Part shown: in pieces, positions 5,513 to 15,701 of the stretch | How the letters are laid out: every line of letters begins with the position of its first letter | Position numbering within the stretch: the stretch's first letter is position 1 | The notes under the pieces: model-generated | What the model saw: the letters and a program-made list of their open reading frames with translations, nothing else | The model's database searches: none | What the model was told of the DNA's origin: nothing | Assembly (NCBI GenBank): GCA_021791055.1 | Contig: JAJYXI010000002.1 | Span: 1-50,348 of the forward strand | DNA from: Nitrospirota bacterium | Lineage (GTDB): Bacteria; Nitrospirota; Thermodesulfovibrionia; Thermodesulfovibrionales; Dissulfurispiraceae | Length of the DNA stretch: 50,348 bases | Direction: 5' to 3' | Made by a program: the position numbers and the translations under genes

Positions 5513-6130
5513 TCATTTAAGGTCTTCAATGATTCCTCTGAGAATAAATGCAGCACCTTTGTAAAAATCTTCTGCAGTAAACTCTATTACCTTATCCGCA
5601 AAAAAGGGCAGCCACGATGCCATGTGATCGCTCAGAAAGTCGCTCCTCATCTCAAAGAGTCTGGATGCTTCTTCCCGCTTTCCCTGTTCAAAGTATTCGA
5701 TTATTTTTTGTGTCAGATAATAAATAAACTCAAGTTCGATGCCGATATGGTCGTCAGGTATGCTGTAAAGTTCCTGGACTGCCATGCCTGCCTCAAGGTA
5801 TCTTTTCCTGACATCAATGGTCTCGTCTGTCATTAAGGATCGGGACTCTGATAAATAAAAAGAGGCATAAGGCACTGCTGGAGGATTTTTAGGCCCTATG
5901 AATAAACGGGCATATTCGAGTGCAAGTTCTTCGATCCACTCATTAAGCCTGTATTCATTCTTTCTGACTGATTCGATCAGGAGTTTCAGCCCATAGTTTA
6001 TCTCATTATCTGTCTCATCTGGAGGATCAATCTCTGCGAGTTCATTAATCAATTCTTTTGTAGGCTCTTTTAAAAATAACTGTCTCAGAAGATTATATAA
6101 ATAAAGTTCTTCTCTTAATTCGTCTATCAT
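5513..6130 (-). CDS. TorD/DmsD-family molybdoenzyme chaperone
   Basis: A helical protein of about 205 residues of the TorD/NarJ family, which binds the Tat signal of a molybdoenzyme and holds it until the cofactor is in place. The family cores are visible as LALEYARLFIGPKNP followed by VPYASFYLSES, and as LPDDHIG-type sequence (SIPDDHIGIELEFIYYL). It directly follows the gene for the 948-residue molybdoenzyme in the same direction, so that enzyme is its likely client. ATG 6130 with AGAGGTG upstream is preferred over the in-frame GTG at 6136. Confidence 0.88.
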   Translation of the reverse strand: MIDELREELYLYNLLRQLFLKEPTKELINELAEIDPPDETDNEINYGLKLLIESVRKNEYRLNEWIEELALEYARLFIGPKNPPAVPYASFYLSESRSLMTDETIDVRKRYLEAGMAVQELYSIPDDHIGIELEFIYYLTQKIIEYFEQGKREEASRLFEMRSDFLSDHMASWLPFFADKVIEFTAEDFYKGAAFILRGIIEDLK

Positions 6131-6160
6131 TGTCACCTCTTATTTGGTTGATGAGTATAT

Positions 6161-6227: not shown

Positions 6228-9074
6228 CTACGCCTTCTTCACCTTCACGATCATATCCGCATAACCGGGGAACCCCATTATAGGGCTTAATACATCCGGG
6301 TCTACGAGGTCGTTGTGGCTCGGCGTGTAGTCTTTTGTCTTGTATGCAGGACCAAGTCCTTCGCTGAACCTTCCGCCTGTGGCAAAACCAATCTTGATAA
6401 CGCCTGGTCTTATTCCGCCTGAGGCAAATACCTTGCCTTTTGTAGATTTTTTAAGAGGGTTTTCGACAACCACCATGTCACCGCTCTTAAGCCCAAGTTT
6501 CTTTGCATCATCGATGTTCATCCATATAGTGCCGACAGAATAGGTGTTAGCCTTGAATTTCATCTTCATGGATTTCATCGGCTCATCGCCCATCGGCATG
6601 GCCTCCGGAACATCCGCCTCGAATTCCTTGTTCATGGGCTGCCATGTCCCCTCAGTCTTGATCTCTCCGAGCCATGGAATCATCTGCGTGCCGCTCATGG
6701 CATGGTGGACACGTCCGCAGATAAGCTGGAACGGATAATCCTTGTCATATTTTTTATACGCAGGATTTGTATGCGGGTTCCACTTTGTCTCGAACCAGAA
6801 AAAGGTCTCAGGGAACTTTGTAAAGCCTATCTCCTTTAATCCGAGAGGCACTTCGCCGCCTGCCTTCTCTATCTTCTCGTTATAAGACTTGTAGCCTCCG
6901 TAGCGTTTGTCTCCGTCTTTCCAGTCGAACTTGAACTCGATGAGCTTTGTGGAGGTGTTCGGGAATGCCTTGTTAGGCTCATCGGCATTATGCTTTTTGT
7001 ACCTATACCAGCTCATGGGCCAGATGGCGACGCCGTGATTGTTCCTTAACCATTCGACGGTTACTGGTTTCCCTTTTACGACCTTGTTTTTATCGTCAAC
7101 GGTGACCTCACCTTTTTCGAGTGATTCCGGCGTGCCGATGAGCTTGTAGCCTTCCGGATATTGTGGATAAGGAAGCGGTGTCCCTACATTGACCCTGCCG
7201 GGCGCCGGCGCAAGCATCTCGTTTACAAAATCCTCTTCGGACTTATATTTCTCCCAGAAGTCAGAGCCTTTAATGTCAGAATCTCCAAGCTCATTCAGCT
7301 TCTTTGCGAGCATGTTCATTATCTCCGTTGGCTTTTTGGACTCGTGAAGCGGTTTGATTACCGCATCCCTGTTGTAGATCACCTGATGGGACGGATAAAT
7401 ATCGCTGAGACTCTGTCTTTCCGCATAGCTCGCCTCGGGCAGAATCACATCTGCATATAGGGCGCTTTCGAGGTTGAGGCTGTCGATGAAGACATAAAGC
7501 TCAAGCTTGTAATTGCCTTTCGCATCCTTTGCGGTAATTGCCTCTTTCCATTTGTACGGCGCTGAACCGGTGAGGATGGAATTACCCGTTCTCAGGATGT
7601 ATGACTTGATGGGATAGTGGTATCCCCTGAACGGGCCATACCTGATGTCAACACCCTCTTTGAAGGCATTGGGATAATCCGCGACAGCATCATCCCATGC
7701 AGCGGGATATTTGCTCCCGAAGAGGTCCATATGGAAATGTTCCACCTCTCCTTCAACCTCTTTGCCGTTTATTGTCCTCTTTACCTTCCTCGATTTAAAC
7801 TGCTTCCCTGTTGCGGAACCGCCTTTATCCGATTTCACAAGCTCTGTGTCTATAACGCCGCCCGGCACATCGAAGTTTCCGGTTATCACGTTCAGAGCCA
7901 CGCCGATGATTGAAGCACAGTAGCCGTTATAGTGGTGTCCCGGCGACTGCATACCCCAAACAAGGGCTGCCGGCTTTGTTATTCCAAATAGATGGGAGAG
8001 TTCTTCAATCTGTTTTTTGCTCAAGCCTGTCCTGTCGGCTGCCCAGTCAAGGCTGAAGTAGCTCAAGCCGTTAATCGGGTCTTTCTTGTGCCACCACGAC
8101 TTGAATGCCGCCTCAAAATCTTCCCATCCTGTGGAGTATTTCTTGAAGCTCCAGTCTATATACTTTTTGTTCGGGTCATTCTGGCTGTCATTTTCAAGGA
8201 TATATCTGAGCATTGCGCCAAAGAGGTCTCCGTCCGTGCCTGCGCGCGGGGCAAGCCACATATCCGCAGCAGTAGCCGTGTTGGAGTAACTTGGGTCAAT
8301 GACTACCACCTTACATCCATTTTCTACTTTTGCTCCCACTGTTCCCCTGTTTTCATAGAATATCCTTGTTGCGACAAAGGGGTTCCAGCCGTTATAGACA
8401 ATCAGTTTTGATTTATATGTGTAGTCCTTTTTCAGAGAGCCGTCGGGCTGCCTTACAATCTGGGGCCTCATTATGTCCGGCTCCCATCTCTTGCCGCCGA
8501 CCATAAGTTTCGGGCCATGCCTTCTCGGAGTGTCGCATATAGCGCCGTGCTCAGTACAGTTTGGAGTTCCGTAAGCAAAGAAAAGCCTGTAGTACTGATC
8601 TCTGTCGGTGACATCGCCACAGTCCATGATGACAGACTCTGCTCCGTATTTCTTTTTAATGTCCGTCAGTTTCTTCCCGATGTGATCAATGGCCTCATCC
8701 CATGTTACGCGTTTGAATTTACCTGAGCCTCTTTCACCGACTCTTATCATCGGATATTTCAATCTATATGGAGAATATACAAGCTGCTGCCCTGAAGCGC
8801 CTTTTGCACATGCTATTCCGTCGTTCATGGGCACTGCCTTATTGCCGTAAATCTTTGCAATCTTCCCGTCCTTAACCCACATCTCAAGTCCGCATTCAGC
8901 AGGACACATGGCATCGGCGGTATACTTCACTTCATATTTGCCCATCGCCGTCTGCATTGCCTCTGCCTCGGCAGGGGAAAGATGTTTTAAAGACATTAGA
9001 CCTGTTTTGTTTAATGCTGATATTCCGGCAAGCGCTCCGGCATATTTTAAAAATACCCTTCTTGATACCTGCAT
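6228..9074 (-). CDS. Tat-exported molybdopterin oxidoreductase, catalytic subunit (substrate unknown)
   Basis: A 948-residue DMSO-reductase-family enzyme carrying bis-MGD molybdenum. The N-terminus is a Tat signal (SRRVFLKYAGALAG). The [4Fe-4S] region has C57, C61 and C89, but the position of the first cluster ligand is D54, where most relatives have Cys. Then come the molybdopterin domains (FKRVTWDEAIDHIGKKL), a likely Mo-ligand Cys180 in HGAICDTPRRHGPK, and a C-terminal MGD-binding domain. Periplasmic location and a role as reductase or oxidase of an inorganic oxyanion are inferred. Neighbours are a ferredoxin subunit upstream (11-base gap), a TorD chaperone downstream and an ACR3 arsenite pump, so an arsenic or sulfur oxyanion is plausible. 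AGGAGGTGA precedes the ATG. It is distinct from the ArrA-like enzyme at 20159-22708. Confidence 0.88.
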   Translation of the reverse strand: MQVSRRVFLKYAGALAGISALNKTGLMSLKHLSPAEAEAMQTAMGKYEVKYTADAMCPAECGLEMWVKDGKIAKIYGNKAVPMNDGIACAKGASGQQLVYSPYRLKYPMIRVGERGSGKFKRVTWDEAIDHIGKKLTDIKKKYGAESVIMDCGDVTDRDQYYRLFFAYGTPNCTEHGAICDTPRRHGPKLMVGGKRWEPDIMRPQIVRQPDGSLKKDYTYKSKLIVYNGWNPFVATRIFYENRGTVGAKVENGCKVVVIDPSYSNTATAADMWLAPRAGTDGDLFGAMLRYILENDSQNDPNKKYIDWSFKKYSTGWEDFEAAFKSWWHKKDPINGLSYFSLDWAADRTGLSKKQIEELSHLFGITKPAALVWGMQSPGHHYNGYCASIIGVALNVITGNFDVPGGVIDTELVKSDKGGSATGKQFKSRKVKRTINGKEVEGEVEHFHMDLFGSKYPAAWDDAVADYPNAFKEGVDIRYGPFRGYHYPIKSYILRTGNSILTGSAPYKWKEAITAKDAKGNYKLELYVFIDSLNLESALYADVILPEASYAERQSLSDIYPSHQVIYNRDAVIKPLHESKKPTEIMNMLAKKLNELGDSDIKGSDFWEKYKSEEDFVNEMLAPAPGRVNVGTPLPYPQYPEGYKLIGTPESLEKGEVTVDDKNKVVKGKPVTVEWLRNNHGVAIWPMSWYRYKKHNADEPNKAFPNTSTKLIEFKFDWKDGDKRYGGYKSYNEKIEKAGGEVPLGLKEIGFTKFPETFFWFETKWNPHTNPAYKKYDKDYPFQLICGRVHHAMSGTQMIPWLGEIKTEGTWQPMNKEFEADVPEAMPMGDEPMKSMKMKFKANTYSVGTIWMNIDDAKKLGLKSGDMVVVENPLKKSTKGKVFASGGIRPGVIKIGFATGGRFSEGLGPAYKTKDYTPSHNDLVDPDVLSPIMGFPGYADMIVKVKKA

Positions 9075-9085
9075 ATTTTCACCTC

Positions 9086-9751
9086 CTACCTGTTTATCTG
9101 GCCGTCGGCCGCTGAAAAGACCTCTTTATCAGGTGCGATAAAGGTTGTCCTCGGCTTTGTGCCGTATTCAGGATGCCAATCCGTTGTTTTTACAGACGCC
9201 TTGAGCTTTGAGACTGCGCTGTCAGGGTCGCTCAGGTCTCCAAAGAATCTTGCCTTTCCAACGCAGTTTCTCACGCATGCCGGCTCTTCAATGCCATCTG
9301 CAAGCCTGTGGCTGCAATAATCGCACTTATCAACAACCCTTAAGTCCTTTGCCTTTTTCCCCTTAACTTCAGGGACATCTTTGGCATACTTTGATGGATC
9401 ATTCTTCACAGGGATATGCGGATGCATGAATCTCGCTCCATAAGGACATGCGCCTACGCATCTCCCGCAGCCGATGCATAAGTCCCTGTTCACCATTACA
9501 ACTCCATCCTCCCTTTTGTAAGTGGCCCCTTTCACAGGACATGGAAGGACACACGGCGGCTCGTCACACTGATTACAGATTTTGGGGAAAAAATACCTCT
9601 TTGGTTTCGGATATTCGCCTGTATCGGCGATATCCACCTTTGACCTGAACTGTGCCATGGGTGCTGCATTTTCCATCTTGCAGCTTACCTGACAGGATGT
9701 GCAGCCCACGCACTTTCTCAGGTCAACAAGCAATGCATACTTTTTTGACAT
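9086..9751 (-). CDS. Four-cluster ferredoxin-type electron-transfer subunit
   Basis: A 221-residue iron-sulfur subunit of the DmsB/PsrB/NrfC type that would pass electrons to or from the molybdoenzyme encoded just downstream. Cys groups are CVGCTSCQVSC, CNQCDEPPCVLPC, CIGCGRCVGACP and CDYCSHRLADG with CVRNC, giving four [4Fe-4S] clusters. There is no signal peptide, as expected for a partner co-exported with the Tat-signal subunit. It is first in a three-gene unit (ferredoxin, catalytic subunit, TorD). Its ribosome site AGGAGG lies in the arm of a hairpin (9760-9786) below a predicted sigma-54 promoter. Confidence 0.92.
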   Translation of the reverse strand: MSKKYALLVDLRKCVGCTSCQVSCKMENAAPMAQFRSKVDIADTGEYPKPKRYFFPKICNQCDEPPCVLPCPVKGATYKREDGVVMVNRDLCIGCGRCVGACPYGARFMHPHIPVKNDPSKYAKDVPEVKGKKAKDLRVVDKCDYCSHRLADGIEEPACVRNCVGKARFFGDLSDPDSAVSKLKASVKTTDWHPEYGTKPRTTFIAPDKEVFSAADGQINR

Positions 9752-9759
9752 AATTCATC

Positions 9760-9786
9760 CTCCTTTCAAAAAGAATTTGAAAGGAG
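9760..9786 (-). promoter_or_regulatory. Hairpin masking the ribosome binding site of the ferredoxin gene
   Basis: On the minus strand CTCCTTTCAAA, a 5-base loop (TTCTT) and TTTGAAAGGAG form a perfect 11 bp stem. The 3' arm holds the AGGAG of the ribosome site, 8 bases before the ATG at 9751. The sigma-54 start predicted at about 9780 lies inside the 5' arm, so only transcripts coming from upstream could form the full stem. Confidence 0.7.
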
Positions 9787-9790
9787 TTTA

Positions 9791-9806
9791 AGCAATCGTT
9801 ATGCCA
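9791..9806 (-). promoter_or_regulatory. Sigma-54 (-24/-12) promoter
   Basis: The minus strand reads TGGCATAACGATTGCT, matching TGGCAC-N5-TTGC with GG and GC separated by exactly 10 bases. The predicted start is near 9780. It faces the ferredoxin-molybdoenzyme-torD unit. A GAFTGA-containing activator is encoded at 10894-12294. Confidence 0.75.
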
Positions 9807-9890
9807 GAAACAACTATTTGATAAACAAAGATATTTATTTTGGGATGGTGTTCAAAGATAAGGCAGGTGTGCAGAAGATGAACAGCCCTT

Positions 9891-10910
9891 CTACTCATTC
9901 TGTGGAAAGTAAGGCTGAGTTCTTCTGAGCAATTTTGTTGCTGTCACCATTACCGGCACTTCTATCAGTGGCCCAACTACGGTAGCCAATGCAGCGCCCG
10001 ATCCGAGGCCGAACACAACCATTGCCGTGCCTATTGCTACCTCAAATTGCGTGCTTGAGCCGATGAGTGCTACCATTGACGCATCTTCATAGCGATAGCG
10101 TAGTAACCATGCAGTTAGATGAGTTCCTGCCACCATAATAACAAGGTGCAAAAAAACCGGAACAGCAATCAAGGCAACTGTCAGGGGATACTCCAATATC
10201 TTCTGCCCTTCTGATGAAAATAAAAGCACAAGCATTCCCATGAGGGCTCCGGTCGCAAGGTCGCTCATTACAGACAGGTAACGGTTTGCAAACCATTGTT
10301 CGCCCTTACGACGAATTAAGAGCCTTTTGGAAACCTGACCTGCAATCAATGGAAGGCCGACGAACAGCAAAACGCTTACTGCAACCAGCGAGAAGGGAAC
10401 AGGCACTCCGCCCACGCCGAGATAAAATGCTGCGAATGGGGCATAGAGCAAAAGCGTTGATACTGCATTGATTGCGGTAATAACCACGCCCTGTATCACA
10501 TTGCCGCGCGCAAAGGCAATCCAGAACAGCACCATCCCTGTGCAGGGAGAAATGCCGAGAAGGATTGTGCCTGCCCGGAAGTCGGGGTTGTCGAGAAACA
10601 GCCATGCCAGAAGCACCATTAATGGCGGCGCTATTATCCAGTTTGCGATTAAGGTCATGATCGTGGGGCCGATGTTTCTTACGGCATGTGATACTTCTTC
10701 CAGCTTAACCTTCGCCATGGTAGGATACATTAGAAAAAACATGAGGACGGCGATGGGGATGGAAACGCCGCCGATATTAAGCGCATTGATATCGTGCACA
10801 ATTTGCGGGAAAAGTTTGCCCAGAAGCAGACCGGCGACTCCGCACAGGATAATCCAGACATAGATATATTTTTCAAAGCGACCAAGCGTGACTTCAGATT
10901 CTTCGTTCAT
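9891..10910 (-). CDS. acr3: ACR3-family arsenite efflux transporter
   Basis: A 339-residue inner-membrane permease of the ACR3 (BASS-related) family that expels arsenite. About ten hydrophobic helices are visible. The family signature ILLGISPCTGMVLFWIAFAR contains the Cys conserved for arsenite transport, and the late segment IGSSTQFEVAIGTAMVVFGL is also typical. Its start lies within the last 17 bases of the sigma-54 activator gene, so it is translationally coupled to the sensory operon. This is the clearest arsenic link in the window. No arsR, arsC or arsM is nearby. Confidence 0.92.
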   Translation of the reverse strand: MNEESEVTLGRFEKYIYVWIILCGVAGLLLGKLFPQIVHDINALNIGGVSIPIAVLMFFLMYPTMAKVKLEEVSHAVRNIGPTIMTLIANWIIAPPLMVLLAWLFLDNPDFRAGTILLGISPCTGMVLFWIAFARGNVIQGVVITAINAVSTLLLYAPFAAFYLGVGGVPVPFSLVAVSVLLFVGLPLIAGQVSKRLLIRRKGEQWFANRYLSVMSDLATGALMGMLVLLFSSEGQKILEYPLTVALIAVPVFLHLVIMVAGTHLTAWLLRYRYEDASMVALIGSSTQFEVAIGTAMVVFGLGSGAALATVVGPLIEVPVMVTATKLLRRTQPYFPQNE

Positions 10911-12294
10911 TTTCTTCCAGCTTCTTTCTTAGCGTATTTCTTGATATACCTAAGAGTTTTGCTGCATGAACCTGATTGCCCTTTGTAAGTTCCAATGCCT
11001 TTTGAACCATGGATTTTTCAAGCGTGCTGACTATATCCTGAAACCTCTCCTGACAGCCATCCTTGAATGCAAGTTCAACGACATTTTGAATAACCTCCTC
11101 TAAAGAGGCACAACTGTTTCGCAATAAGTTCTGTGCACGCAGACCTTCGCAGCATTCCATGGATAGATAATCGCTGTTGCAGAAAACCATTGCCTTCTGA
11201 ATAACATTCTCAAGTTCTCTGACATTGCCGTGCCACGGATGTTCTTCCAGCTTTTTCAGGGCGTCAGCGGTGATGCCTTTTATTGTCTTGCCGAGCTTTT
11301 TATTGTATTTCTGTATGAAGTAATGGACAAGTTCTTTAATATCCTCTTTTCTTTCCCTTAACGGCGGCACATTGATGGTGACCACATTTATACGATAATA
11401 AAGGTCTTCTCTGAAAGTGCCGCTTTTACCCATCTCCTCAAGGTTCTTATTTGTTGCAGTAATTATCCTTACATCTGTCTCTATCGTCTCTGTGCCACCA
11501 AGTCTTTGGAATTGTCCATCCTGTAATACCCGTAAGACCTTTGCCTGCAAAGGTAGAGTCATATCACCAATTTCATCAAGGAACAGAGTTCCGCCGCTGC
11601 ACTGTTCAAATTTCCCTATGCGTTTAAAATCTGCGCCTGTAAATGCACCACGCTCGTATCCAAAAAGCTCAGACTCAAGGAGTTGTTCTGGAATGGCAGA
11701 GCAATTAATTGCAAGAAAGGGTTTGTCTGCCCTGTTACTGTAATGATAAATCGCCCTTGCAATCAGCTCCTTACCAGTGCCGCTTTCTCCCCTTATAAGA
11801 ACAGTTGCATCTGTTGGCGCTGCCCTTCCGATCTGCTTGTAAATATCAAGCATTTGAGGGCTTTTTCCTATAATTCTTTCACCACCTGCATAATCTTTCA
11901 CCTCATCAAAGGTGACCACCTCTTCCATCAGTTCTCTTGTTTTGATAGCATCCTTAACGCGGATAAGTAATTCATCGTTATCAAAGGGCTTGGCGAGATA
12001 ATCGTATGCACCTAATTTTATAGCGTAAATCGCCTTTTCAGTGGTGCTGAAGGCCGTCATCATTATCACCTGAACCTTTGGATGGGATTCCTTTATCTTT
12101 TTTAATACTTCAAGGCCATCCATTTCAGGCATCCTCACATCCATTATCACAAGGTCGGGTTTTACATCATTTAAAACTGACAATGCATCTTCACCGCTTG
12201 TGGCTGTGTGCACATTATAGCCTTCGGATTGAAGAAATCTGTGAAGGGAATAACACACTGTCTTCTGGTCGTCAACAACAAGTATCTTGCTCAT
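10894..12294 (-). CDS. NtrC-type sigma-54-dependent response regulator
   Basis: A 466-residue activator in three parts. The receiver domain has the phospho-acceptor Asp in VIMDVRMPEMDG. The AAA+ domain has Walker A GESGTGKE, the sigma-54 contact loop ERGAFTGA and Walker B GGTLFLDEIGD. A Fis-type helix-turn-helix closes it (QVHAAKLLGISRNTLRKKL). Its start overlaps the stop of the kinase gene (ATGA), so kinase and regulator form one translational unit. The likely target is the -24/-12 promoter at 9791-9806. By analogy it is the R of an AioXSR/ArrXSR-type module. Confidence 0.93.
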   Translation of the reverse strand: MSKILVVDDQKTVCYSLHRFLQSEGYNVHTATSGEDALSVLNDVKPDLVIMDVRMPEMDGLEVLKKIKESHPKVQVIMMTAFSTTEKAIYAIKLGAYDYLAKPFDNDELLIRVKDAIKTRELMEEVVTFDEVKDYAGGERIIGKSPQMLDIYKQIGRAAPTDATVLIRGESGTGKELIARAIYHYSNRADKPFLAINCSAIPEQLLESELFGYERGAFTGADFKRIGKFEQCSGGTLFLDEIGDMTLPLQAKVLRVLQDGQFQRLGGTETIETDVRIITATNKNLEEMGKSGTFREDLYYRINVVTINVPPLRERKEDIKELVHYFIQKYNKKLGKTIKGITADALKKLEEHPWHGNVRELENVIQKAMVFCNSDYLSMECCEGLRAQNLLRNSCASLEEVIQNVVELAFKDGCQERFQDIVSTLEKSMVQKALELTKGNQVHAAKLLGISRNTLRKKLEENERRI

Positions 12295-13697
12295 ACACTT
12301 ATAGGAATTCTCAGGGTAAAGGTTGTCCCTTCTCCATCAGTTTCAAAACTAATCTCTCCGTTATGGAGGCTTACAATATTATACACTATTGAAAGTCCGA
12401 GACCGGTTCCATCGCTCTTTGTTGTAAAGAACGGGTCAAAAATTTTGTCTTTTATATCTTCAGGTATACCGCTCCCTGTATCTCCAATGCTAACGACTGC
12501 ACTGCCATTTCCCATTTTACTGGATATGGTCAATGTGCCGCCATCAGGCATGGCCTCTATTGCATTAAGAACGAGATTCAGTAGTGCCTGCTGAATCATT
12601 GCCCTGTCAGCTTTCACGGGTGGCAGTTTTGAGAGGTTTAACACAACATTTATGGACTGGTTTTTAATCTGAAACTGAGCAAGGTTTATTACCTGTTTTA
12701 TTACGGAATTAATATATATATCCGACAGATTGAATTCATCACTTCTCGCAAATCTGAGAAACCTCGTCAGTAGGTCATCCATCTGTTCTGTTGCTGAAAG
12801 CACTACTTTCATATCTTCTTTTGTCAATGCCGGATTATCTTTAAATGCCTGAAACAGCACTTTTATAGAGGTGAGCGGATTTCTGATCTCATGGGCAAGC
12901 CCTGCTGAAAGCCTTCCGAGTGCAGTTAATTTTTCTGCCCTTAACATCTGCTTGTAAGATTCCTCCATCTTCTTTCTGTATGCATCAAGCTCACATGAAA
13001 GATTATTGAAGGTACTGGAAAGTTCTCCAACTTCATCTTTTGACCTTATATCAATCTTTCTGCCGAATTCTCCCCTTGAAAGGCTGTGGGTAAAATCCAT
13101 GAGCGTATAAAGGGGTTTTGTTATAAGCCTGCTCAAAGAAAAGGATAAAACAGAACCGACCATTGTAACAGCTATTGTCAGCATTATAATCAGATTTCTA
13201 ATTCCCTTTAAAGCCTGATCGATTCTATCCTCTCTTATGCCGATATGGACTTCCGGATTCATACCTCCAAATATTTTGATGCCTATGTCTCTTATGAAAC
13301 CTTTTTCTGTGTCAAGTAATTGAATGGATGCGAGTAAATTTTTTGTTGGCTGAAGCCCCCTTGTTAACACAGGATTCCATAGAAGTATATCTGGAGGGTA
13401 TCCATTTTTAAAGGTGTGGGCAAATAGGTTTCCGTCCTTATCAGTTACAAAAATATACCCCACATCATGTTCTGTTTTAAGGACATCATCAATTGCCGCC
13501 TGTGTCTGGTATAAGTCATTTAGCAAGACAAAGTCAGCGATTCTATCGGAGAGATTTCTCGCAATCGATTCACCCTGCCTTGTCAATTCAGTTCGCATGG
13601 AACCTACTACAACTCCTCTTATGGTGAGACCGATTAATATCCCGAGTCCAACAACGATGAACACATTGAGCAGTGCTATCTTTATCCAGAGCTTCAT
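12291..13697 (-). CDS. Membrane sensor histidine kinase
   Basis: A 468-residue kinase. An N-terminal TM (IALLNVFIVVGLGILIGL) is followed by a periplasmic or extracytoplasmic region of about 130 residues and a second TM (IIMLTIAVTMVGSVLSF). Then come a HAMP linker, a HisKA helix with the phospho-His in GLAHEIRNPLTSIK, and an HATPase_c domain (N box NLVLNAIEAM, GDTGSGIPE, GTGLGLSIV). It overlaps the binding-protein gene upstream (ATGA) and the regulator gene downstream (ATGA). The arrangement implies that the PhnD-like lipoprotein delivers the signal to its periplasmic domain. Confidence 0.92.
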   Translation of the reverse strand: MKLWIKIALLNVFIVVGLGILIGLTIRGVVVGSMRTELTRQGESIARNLSDRIADFVLLNDLYQTQAAIDDVLKTEHDVGYIFVTDKDGNLFAHTFKNGYPPDILLWNPVLTRGLQPTKNLLASIQLLDTEKGFIRDIGIKIFGGMNPEVHIGIREDRIDQALKGIRNLIIMLTIAVTMVGSVLSFSLSRLITKPLYTLMDFTHSLSRGEFGRKIDIRSKDEVGELSSTFNNLSCELDAYRKKMEESYKQMLRAEKLTALGRLSAGLAHEIRNPLTSIKVLFQAFKDNPALTKEDMKVVLSATEQMDDLLTRFLRFARSDEFNLSDIYINSVIKQVINLAQFQIKNQSINVVLNLSKLPPVKADRAMIQQALLNLVLNAIEAMPDGGTLTISSKMGNGSAVVSIGDTGSGIPEDIKDKIFDPFFTTKSDGTGLGLSIVYNIVSLHNGEISFETDGEGTTFTLRIPISV

Positions 13698-14605
13698 TTT
13701 AGCAAGCCGTATCTTCTACTAAGTTCCTCTATCTCTCTTAGAGACGATTGCTTATACTCCGTAAATCCATTAGGCATCTCTGTTTTATCCCAATCAACAA
13801 CAATGTTTGAATGTTTTCCTCTTGGTTTGAAAGATAGAAGTGCTGCCTTTACACTGTTTATAATTTCAGGTTTCACATCTTTATTAAAGCATATGAGACT
13901 GCTCGGATATGGCTTTGATGTAGCAATAATTTTAATCTTTCCCTCTGCCACCAAGCGTTTTGCGAGGTTATCCTGTATAGCTCCTGCAGCGTACTCTCTG
14001 TTTAAAACCGCCCTTGCAGTGCTGGTATGGGAACCTGTAAATACATAACTCTTTAAATCTTTTATTGTTATACTTGCATCTTCCAACATTCTTCGTGGGA
14101 TGATATGCCCCTGCGTTGAAAACCTATCTCCAAAGGCAAAGGTCTTACCTTTTAAATCTCCGATGTCTTTCAAAGGGCTGTCTTTCCTCGCAAATATAAC
14201 TGAACGGTATTCTGGTTCCCCGTCAGAATTAAGACCCATAACAAGGCATCCCGTTCCATACCTTTCTTTTGCTATAACACAATTAACAGGACCAAGGGCT
14301 GCAAAATGGATAATCCCTTTCCCAAGATTCTCCACAGTGTCTTCATATCTCTCTGTAAATCTGAGGGAAAACTTATTTCCTGTATTTTGCTCAAGATAAC
14401 GAAGAAAGGGAAGATATATCTTTACATCCTCTTTTGGACCAAGTCTGAGGTCAAAGCCGAATTTCAACGATCCAGTTTCTGATCGTTTTACATAATTTTC
14501 TGAAACCGATGTTCTTTTGTTCAGGCTTACTTTTTTAGGGGTCTCCTTGTCTCCGCAACCACTAACAAACAAGACGAAAAGCACTAATATAAGGATTCTT
14601 TTCAT
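13694..14605 (-). CDS. PhnD-like periplasmic binding lipoprotein (sensor component)
   Basis: About 303 residues from ATG 14605, starting with a lipoprotein signal whose lipobox is FVSGC. The rest is a single PhnD/AioX-type periplasmic binding domain (FGFDLRLGPKEDVKIYLPFL, FAALGPVNCVIAKERYG, KTFAFGDRFSTQGHIIPRRM). PhnD relatives bind phosph(on)ates for ABC importers, but no permease or ATPase is nearby. The gene instead overlaps a kinase-regulator pair, as aioX and arrX do. Oxyanion or arsenite sensing is therefore the best inference. Two Cys (in VNCV and GTGC) lie close together and might bind a thiophilic ligand. The frame extends to 14710, but only MKRILILVLF gives a proper signal. Confidence 0.83.
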   Translation of the reverse strand: MKRILILVLFVLFVSGCGDKETPKKVSLNKRTSVSENYVKRSETGSLKFGFDLRLGPKEDVKIYLPFLRYLEQNTGNKFSLRFTERYEDTVENLGKGIIHFAALGPVNCVIAKERYGTGCLVMGLNSDGEPEYRSVIFARKDSPLKDIGDLKGKTFAFGDRFSTQGHIIPRRMLEDASITIKDLKSYVFTGSHTSTARAVLNREYAAGAIQDNLAKRLVAEGKIKIIATSKPYPSSLICFNKDVKPEIINSVKAALLSFKPRGKHSNIVVDWDKTEMPNGFTEYKQSSLREIEELSRRYGLLK

Positions 14606-14618
14606 GTTATTATTAAAT

Positions 14619-15701
14619 TTACTTCCCAAAAGGACACACAGGGTATCTGCATTCCTTGCAATTGAGACATAATCCTCCGTGTCCGAGCTCGGCAAGCTCT
14701 TTTCTTCCAATTCTTTCTCCTGAAAGCACCCTCGGAAGAATTAAATCAAATATGGTTGTCTTGTGATACATGCCGCAGGCAGGGATGCCAAGAATGGGAA
14801 TGGGTGAAAGGTACGCAACTAAAAACATCGCTCCAGGAAGCACTGCAGAGCCGTATGTAATATCTGTGGCGCCAAGTCTTCTGATTGCAAACCTTGTTAC
14901 ATCATCAGGGTCCACAGACATGCCTCCTGTTGTAATAAGCAGGTCAGCGCCTGTCTCGATTAATTCTCTCAGCCTTGCCTCTATGAATTCTTCATTGTCA
15001 GGCGCATAATATATTCCTATAATATCACCGTTAAACTCCGCTATCTTTTTTGTAATTACCGGTGCAAAGGCATCCTTTATCTTTCCGTAATAAATCTCAT
15101 TGCCGGTGATAACCACACCAACTTTTGGTTTTCTGATTTCTTTAACCTCAATTACACCTTGCCCCTTGACCCCCTGACCCCTTGACCCATTTGCAATTCT
15201 CACTGCTTCTTCCACAATCGCTTTTTTAACCACCAGCGGTATCACCCTTGTTCCAGCAACAATCTGTCCTTTCCTCACCACCGTATTGTCATGAAGTGTT
15301 GCGCACATCACATCACCGAGCATATTGAATTGGGCGAGGTTGGGCCTGTTAATTTTCAACAGTCCATCCCTGTCAGCAAGGATATTTATCTTACCTTCTT
15401 TCGGCTCCCCTTCCATCTTTACGCCTTCACCCATCAATGCATTAGCCAGCGCATATGCAGCATCATCTTCATGGACTTCGTCGTCTGCGATGTTTAGAAC
15501 AAACAGATTCTCTTTTCCGAGTCTTTGAAGGTGGCTTATATCTTCTTCTTTGACTATATGCCCCTTTTTAAATGCCCTGCCCTTAAAATCGTCCTGTCTT
15601 ATCTCTGTAATATCGTGTGCCAGAACCATACCCACTGCCTCTGTTACGGGTATTGTATTACCTGTCCTGCCTTTTATTTCACTGTTTTGAACATCGCACA
15701 T
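14619..15701 (-). CDS. MoeA/MoaB-like molybdopterin-binding protein
   Basis: A 360-residue protein with a MoaB/Mog-type molybdopterin-binding core (VGVVITGNEIYYGKI, DLLITTGGMSVDPDDVT, LPGAMFLVAY). This fold acts in molybdate insertion or in sensing the cofactor. The N-terminal part (VTEAVGMVLAHDITEIRQDD) is shared with stand-alone relatives rather than full MoeA. The C-terminus ends with a Cys-rich tail (GLCLNCKECRYPVCPFGK) that could bind metal. AAGGAGG precedes the ATG. It sits between a ModE-type regulator gene and the sensory module. Residues about 172-180 (RGQGVKGQGV) come from a short-word repeat. Confidence 0.82.
   Translation of the reverse strand: MCDVQNSEIKGRTGNTIPVTEAVGMVLAHDITEIRQDDFKGRAFKKGHIVKEEDISHLQRLGKENLFVLNIADDEVHEDDAAYALANALMGEGVKMEGEPKEGKINILADRDGLLKINRPNLAQFNMLGDVMCATLHDNTVVRKGQIVAGTRVIPLVVKKAIVEEAVRIANGSRGQGVKGQGVIEVKEIRKPKVGVVITGNEIYYGKIKDAFAPVITKKIAEFNGDIIGIYYAPDNEEFIEARLRELIETGADLLITTGGMSVDPDDVTRFAIRRLGATDITYGSAVLPGAMFLVAYLSPIPILGIPACGMYHKTTIFDLILPRVLSGERIGRKELAELGHGGLCLNCKECRYPVCPFGK
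15162..15188. repeat. In-frame short-word repeat in the MoeA-like gene
   Basis: CCCTTGACC-, CCCTGACC- and CCTTGACC-type units of about 8 bases follow one another at 15162-15188. They encode the low-complexity stretch RGQGVKGQG in an otherwise conserved protein, in a linker between the N-terminal part and the VGVVITG strand. Confidence 0.7.

Follow-up and report, generated by a model that had tools for sequence, protein, structure and literature searches.

A hairpin over a ferredoxin ribosome site at a predicted sigma-54 promoter in a Nitrospirota bacterium: a candidate guard against translation of read-through RNA

Introduction

How can an inducible enzyme be kept off when the genes directly ahead of it are always transcribed? 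Many enzyme operons lie directly behind the constantly expressed sensor operon that controls them; the aioXSR sensor operon of Rhizobium NT-26, for instance, is reported to be constitutively expressed, upstream of the sigma-54-driven aioBA genes (PMC6011840). The same question is raised by a stretch of 50,348 nucleotides from a Nitrospirota bacterium (contig JAJYXI010000002.1), hereafter the window, in which a hairpin covers the ribosome site of a ferredoxin-molybdoenzyme operon. An earlier note on this DNA proposed that the hairpin forms on RNA reading through from the sensor genes upstream and is lacking on RNA started at the operon's own sigma-54 promoter. If true, a read-through-only hairpin would be a simple, protein-free means of keeping an inducible respiratory enzyme off. 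Here we report a computational analysis of the hairpin, the promoter and the related loci.

Loci and measures

Homologues of the enzyme were collected from about 16 loci in the same class and from more distant ones. L091 and L072 were left out of the comparison because of their different, Tat-signalled ferredoxin. The predicted energy cost of opening the Shine-Dalgarno (SD) sequence was chosen as the measure of masking because the SD-unpaired probability saturates; with the latter as the measure, the combined result is weak (p = 0.026). Leaders were compared across 22 ORFs of this genome that lie behind sigma-54-like sites, all of them pattern hits.

Genes around the hairpin

Read along the minus strand, the genes are ordered as binding protein, kinase, regulator and acr3, followed by a 140-nt gap and the ferredoxin-molybdoenzyme-TorD operon (Table 1). 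The earlier note took a sensory/acr3 operon as the origin of the read-through RNA, and this stands in part: the acr3 and sensor genes, 140 nt upstream, are co-directional with the enzyme operon, and the search for terminator-like sites, carried up to the sigma-54 promoter, detected no intrinsic terminator between acr3 and the operon, which makes these genes a candidate source of read-through. An acr3 gene between the sensor genes and the ferredoxin gene is, on the other hand, a special feature of the window; most relatives have the regulator gene itself as upstream neighbour, and their sensor genes usually lie directly ahead of the ferredoxin gene.

The context of sensor genes and acr3 suggests that the substrate of the molybdoenzyme is an arsenic or antimony oxyanion. 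For ArrA, PhsA and arsenite oxidase alike, the enzyme scores far under the curated cut-off. A search of plasmids for AioX-type loci returned PhnD-like transport proteins only.

Table 1. Positions of the features discussed, in window coordinates unless a locus is named
Feature	Position	Strand	Remark
TorD-like chaperone	5513..6136	-	
Tat-type molybdopterin oxidoreductase catalytic subunit, DMSO reductase superfamily	6228..9074	-	not ArrA/PhsA by curated cut-offs
Fe-S (ferredoxin-like) subunit gene	9086..9751	-	SD mostly within hairpin
SD core AGGAGG of ferredoxin gene	9759..9764	-	7 nt ahead of ATG 9751
Hairpin 3' arm TTTGAAAGGAG	9760..9770	-	contains most of SD; invariant in 8 closest relatives
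Hairpin loop TTCTT	9771..9775	-	
Hairpin 5' arm CTCCTTTCAAA	9776..9786	-	includes anti-SD CTCCTT, overlapping sigma-54 promoter -6..-1
Predicted sigma-54 transcription start zone	9778..9782	-	+1 about 9780, from -12 C at 9792
Sigma-54 promoter -24/-12 TGGCATAACGATTGCT	9791..9806	-	predicted; near-consensus; kept in relatives
Putative activator dyad 2, TGCCTT-N5-TGAACA	9849..9865	-	from alignment of relatives
Putative activator dyad 1, TGTTCA-N5-TGCACA	9868..9884	-	from alignment of relatives
acr3 arsenite efflux gene	9891..10910	-	co-directional upstream neighbour; stop about 105 nt ahead of hairpin
NtrC-family sigma-54 response regulator	10894..12294	-	
Sensor histidine kinase	12291..13697	-	
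PhnD/ArrX-type periplasmic binding protein (AioX/ArrX-like sensor)	13694..14710	-	
Toxin-antitoxin-like insertions	L092 7825-8657; L050 8422-9136; L032 7900-8190		

Hairpin over the ferredoxin ribosome site

The 11-bp hairpin described in the earlier note is indeed perfect, with 11/11 complementary positions and a 5-nt loop (CTCCTTTCAAA-TTCTT-TTTGAAAGGAG, 9786-9760, minus strand). Its 3' arm encloses the AAAGGAG of GAAAGGAGG, the SD region of the ferredoxin gene, and its 5' arm carries the anti-SD CTCCTT at 9786-9781. The RNA fold has a predicted energy of -14.8 kcal/mol; shuffled sequences average -7.0 (z = -3.6), and 0/200 of them are equally stable. The 50-kb window has 3 places where an inverted repeat is perfect over 11 bp or more around a loop of 3-8 nt, and 12 dinucleotide shuffles of it have none. 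An intrinsic terminator or attenuator was considered and rejected, as the stem is followed by GATGAATTATG, with no T run, and the hairpin is absent from the list of terminator-like sites.

Sigma-54 promoter and predicted start site

The GG and GC of the -24/-12 elements are present at the fixed spacing in TGGCATAACGATTGCT, which matches the RpoN promoter of NT-26 aioBA (TGGCACAACGATTGCA; PMC6011840) in 14/16 bases. Tandem putative activator dyads lie 77-96 bp upstream, and a candidate cognate AAA+ regulator is encoded at 10894-12294. Across 14 aligned loci, few intergenic parts are kept as well as the -24/-12 elements and the tandem TGnnCA-N5-TGnnCA dyads, and we regard the sigma-54 promoter at 9806-9791 as well supported, since both the site and the two dyads are kept in relatives. 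The dyads are likely to be binding sites of the NtrC-type regulator. These 17-bp tandem dyads, with the consensus CTGTTCA-N5-TGCACA / CTGnnCA-N5-TGAACA, are kept in 14 loci from several families, and offer a ready-made motif for searching the regulon of the regulator.

Because the -12 C is at 9792, transcription is predicted to start at about 9780, inside the 5' arm, as the earlier note had also placed it; RNA from the sigma-54 promoter would therefore lack CTCCTT.

Promoter-dependent masking

The geometry and the energies agree with the earlier proposal of a full hairpin on read-through RNA and an open SD on sigma-54 RNA. In the window, opening the SD is predicted to require 13.1 kcal/mol if the RNA reads through from upstream and 2.3 kcal/mol if it starts at the sigma-54 promoter. 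When the start was moved base by base, the SD was predicted to be free (1.4-3.7 kcal/mol) at 9783 and all positions downstream, and closed (6.8-12.0 kcal/mol) from 9784 upstream. The switch point of predicted accessibility corresponds to a start at 9783-9785, and the prediction therefore tolerates an error of about 3 bases in the start. When positions -11 to +3 alone were shuffled, the cost was 5.5 ± 2.1 kcal/mol, which gives p = 0.006 for the native value.

We favour, with moderate confidence, the reading that the hairpin masks the ribosome site in a promoter-dependent manner and so guards against read-through. It joins features that are observed in the sequence or computed from it, namely the hairpin, its overlap with the SD, the sigma-54 site, the kept dyads, the lack of a detectable terminator and the energy difference; from these we infer the real start site, the read-through and the effect on translation in vivo. 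RNA continuing from the sensor/acr3 operon would carry both arms, and the 11-bp stem would form before the start codon is synthesized and hide the ferredoxin SD. Ribosomes finishing acr3 would halt about 105 nt short of the stem and leave it unmelted. Once the NtrC-type regulator fires the sigma-54 promoter, RNA beginning at about 9780 would lack CTCCTT and expose the SD. The enzyme would thus be made solely from its own induced promoter, even with uninduced transcription of the sensor operon upstream.

Anti-SD pairing in relatives

The earlier note looked to relatives for conservation of the stem with compensating changes, and counted a stem not kept in them against its proposal. Conservation in that form is not seen: the exact 11-bp stem is not kept, the same-genus locus L092 having 3 mismatches, and no two-sided compensatory change was found among close relatives. 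None of the 8 closest loci departs from TTTTTGAAAGGAGG, and variation in the region is greatest in the 5' arm. The loss is of the exact stem, however, and the loci free of pairing are L092, L035 and L056, where read-through appears blocked; relatives open to read-through usually retain some SD-masking pairing in the same place with altered sequence.

Strong but differing anti-SD pairings, at roughly the same place (-13 to +2), occur in five relatives. L050 shares the CTCCTTTC arm but not the loop of the window, and its predicted opening cost is 13.2 kcal/mol on read-through RNA against 1.2 on sigma-54 RNA (p = 0.002). The corresponding costs are 11.6 and 1.5 kcal/mol in L052 (p = 0.022), which pairs CCTT with AAGG and adds an outer stem, and 10.8 and 1.7 kcal/mol in L032 (p = 0.030). 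L032 and L034 share a CTTTTC pairing and an outer stem joining the -12 element to bases after the SD. L097 reaches 11.8 against 6.7 kcal/mol (p = 0.002) with unrelated letters, GATACCC/GGGTATC, and a loop of about 40 nt.

In the shuffle test, p is at most 0.03 in the window, L050, L052, L032 and L097 and 0.09 in L034; the test is not significant in 9/14 loci. Masking is strong in 5-6 of the 14 loci and absent where read-through appears blocked, with a stem that is not kept letter by letter. Exchange of the arms between loci gave p = 0.02, seemingly driven mostly by L097. On the enzyme tree the label 'strong hairpin' needs at least 3 changes, and it is therefore not a single inherited block.

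Shielded and unshielded loci

Three of the related loci appear shielded from read-through. The HepT/nucleotidyltransferase pair upstream in L092 (same genus) and the thymidylate-synthase-like gene upstream in L035 both point away from the operon, and in L056 the upstream gene is followed by a strong intrinsic terminator, AGGCCCTGC...GCAGGGCCTTTAT, with a fold of -26 kcal/mol. These loci have the lowest opening costs on read-through RNA (1.8, 0.9 and 3.8 kcal/mol for L092, L035 and L056, respectively), against 4.9 to 13.2 kcal/mol in the 11 loci whose upstream neighbour is co-directional and where no terminator was detected. With local folding context, the separation of 3 shielded from 11 unshielded loci is complete (Mann-Whitney p = 0.0027), L056 having first been put among the shielded provisionally, for distance, and its terminator found after the classes were fixed; once the folding context is widened to 60 nt on the upstream side and 40 nt on the downstream side, the contrast is gone (p = 0.23).

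Two loci, L049 and L096, stand outside this comparison. Both have the regulator upstream; in L049 the sigma-54 site is about 100 nt further off and the SD is largely open, and in L096, which is without a guard, a sigma-54 site was sought and not found. A guard is therefore not obligatory. Weakest pairing where read-through is blocked is what a read-through guard predicts, and the contrast suggests such a role, on a small number of related loci and with L049 and L096 as counter-examples. Shielded and unshielded relatives form a natural experiment, which makes the guard idea directly testable.

A broader and more tentative proposal, possible but less likely than not, is that the promoter core (-13 to +2) of this family of three-component sigma-54 molybdoenzyme operons is used twice, as melting region and as anti-SD against read-through, the anti-SD being reinvented with other letters in different lineages and disappearing where read-through is already blocked by a divergent neighbour or a terminator.

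Alternative explanations

Chance complementarity survives best among the rivals, and we consider it rather unlikely: the sigma-54 spacer, which contains pyrimidines, and the SD, which is purine-rich, would happen to pair within a stretch of 30 nt, with no selected function. The variability of the 5' arm, the several relatives that pair no better than their shuffles, and a composition-shuffled mean opening cost that is already 5-6 kcal/mol are what speaks for it, yet a perfect 11-bp stem never arose in shuffled windows, and masking recurs in L050, L052 and L032 and independently in L097, being weakest where read-through is blocked. Moreover, of the leaders of the 22 sigma-54-linked ORFs compared in this genome, that of the ferredoxin gene shows the largest difference between read-through and own RNA, and generic T-rich promoter composition is therefore no sufficient account. 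A general composition effect of sigma-54 promoters was likewise rejected, as most 22-32 nt leaders of sigma-54-linked ORFs differ little between the two RNAs.

It is very improbable that the hairpin lies on the translated RNA itself, from a start upstream of 9786, and there tunes translation or senses temperature, a ligand or a small RNA, as does the small ribosome-site hairpin of Bacillus subtilis sigG. Initiation at or before 9785 would place the stem on the induced RNA. Against this, the -12 C at 9792 places +1 at about 9780, given the near-fixed geometry of sigma-54 promoters and a site kept in relatives.

A DNA operator over the start site for a repressor (e.g. ArsR-like), which the shape of a perfect dyad there would fit, is the least probable and was dropped, since the dyad is not kept as DNA in relatives (its 5' arm being the most variable part), the regulator's own kept dyads are located elsewhere, and the recurring feature is a complement to the SD, spelled otherwise from locus to locus, with loops of 3 to about 40 nt and G-U pairs (in L032, L034 and L050), which fits RNA better.

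Comparison with known systems

The closest parallels to the guard reading come from phage and from sporulation. In phage T4, I-TevI, I-TevII, I-TevIII, segB, soc and e carry a ribosome-site hairpin on early/middle read-through RNA only and not on late-promoter RNA (PMC2988022). In the I-TevI type, as predicted for the window, RNA from the adjacent promoter lacks the 5' arm and the longer RNA forms a stem over the SD; the T4 cases were shown experimentally and concern temporal control by phage late promoters, whereas the window case is predicted and concerns a respiratory operon behind a chromosomal sigma-54 promoter with an NtrC-type activator. For sigG (spoIIIG) of B. subtilis, a large hairpin missing from PsigG RNA was proposed to block translation of spoIIGA-sigE read-through RNA (PMC5942855). 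Like the window case, this is a cellular gene right behind an earlier-transcribed operon, with a read-through hairpin that would not form on RNA from the gene's own promoter; it differs in its sigma-F/sigma-G promoters and in a stem of 20+ bp, against 11 bp embedded in a sigma-54 core region.

The AioXSR/aioBA three-component system of NT-26 shares with the window an AioX/ArrX-type sensor, a kinase and an NtrC-type regulator upstream and a sigma-54 promoter, and differs in having Rieske AioB plus AioA in place of an Fe-S ferredoxin subunit and a catalytic subunit of about 950 aa; in the published passages compared, a read-through hairpin at aioBA is not mentioned (PMC6011840, PMC5908839). We found no report of promoter-dependent masking at a sigma-54 promoter in the open-access literature. 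What would be new relative to T4 and Bacillus is the sigma-54 promoter core doubling as anti-SD and the metabolic setting, although priority is not certain. If the guard reading is true, the logic of phage T4 and of spore development would be carried into sigma-54 metabolic control.

Further observations

Elsewhere in the same genome, at locus L115 (G000:C33, about 31118, minus strand), the -12 TTGC of a sigma-54 leader pairs with GCAA after the SD; the predicted opening cost is 13.7 kcal/mol on read-through RNA and 3.3 on own RNA, and there is no close co-directional upstream gene. An energy difference so like that of the window, in a locus of this kind, speaks against the guard reading. Toxin-antitoxin-like genes (HepT/HEPN plus nucleotidyltransferase, PIN) have been inserted repeatedly, in varied orientation, between the sensor genes and the enzyme operon (Table 1). 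A replaced ferredoxin partner, 43-46% identical and with its own RRD-type (Tat-like) N-terminus, accompanies an 88% identical enzyme gene in L091 (1403-2053, minus) and L072 (2625-3281, minus). In L033 (3463-12180) the ferredoxin-molybdoenzyme-TorD unit is present twice in tandem, with 49% and 94% identity to the enzyme of the window.
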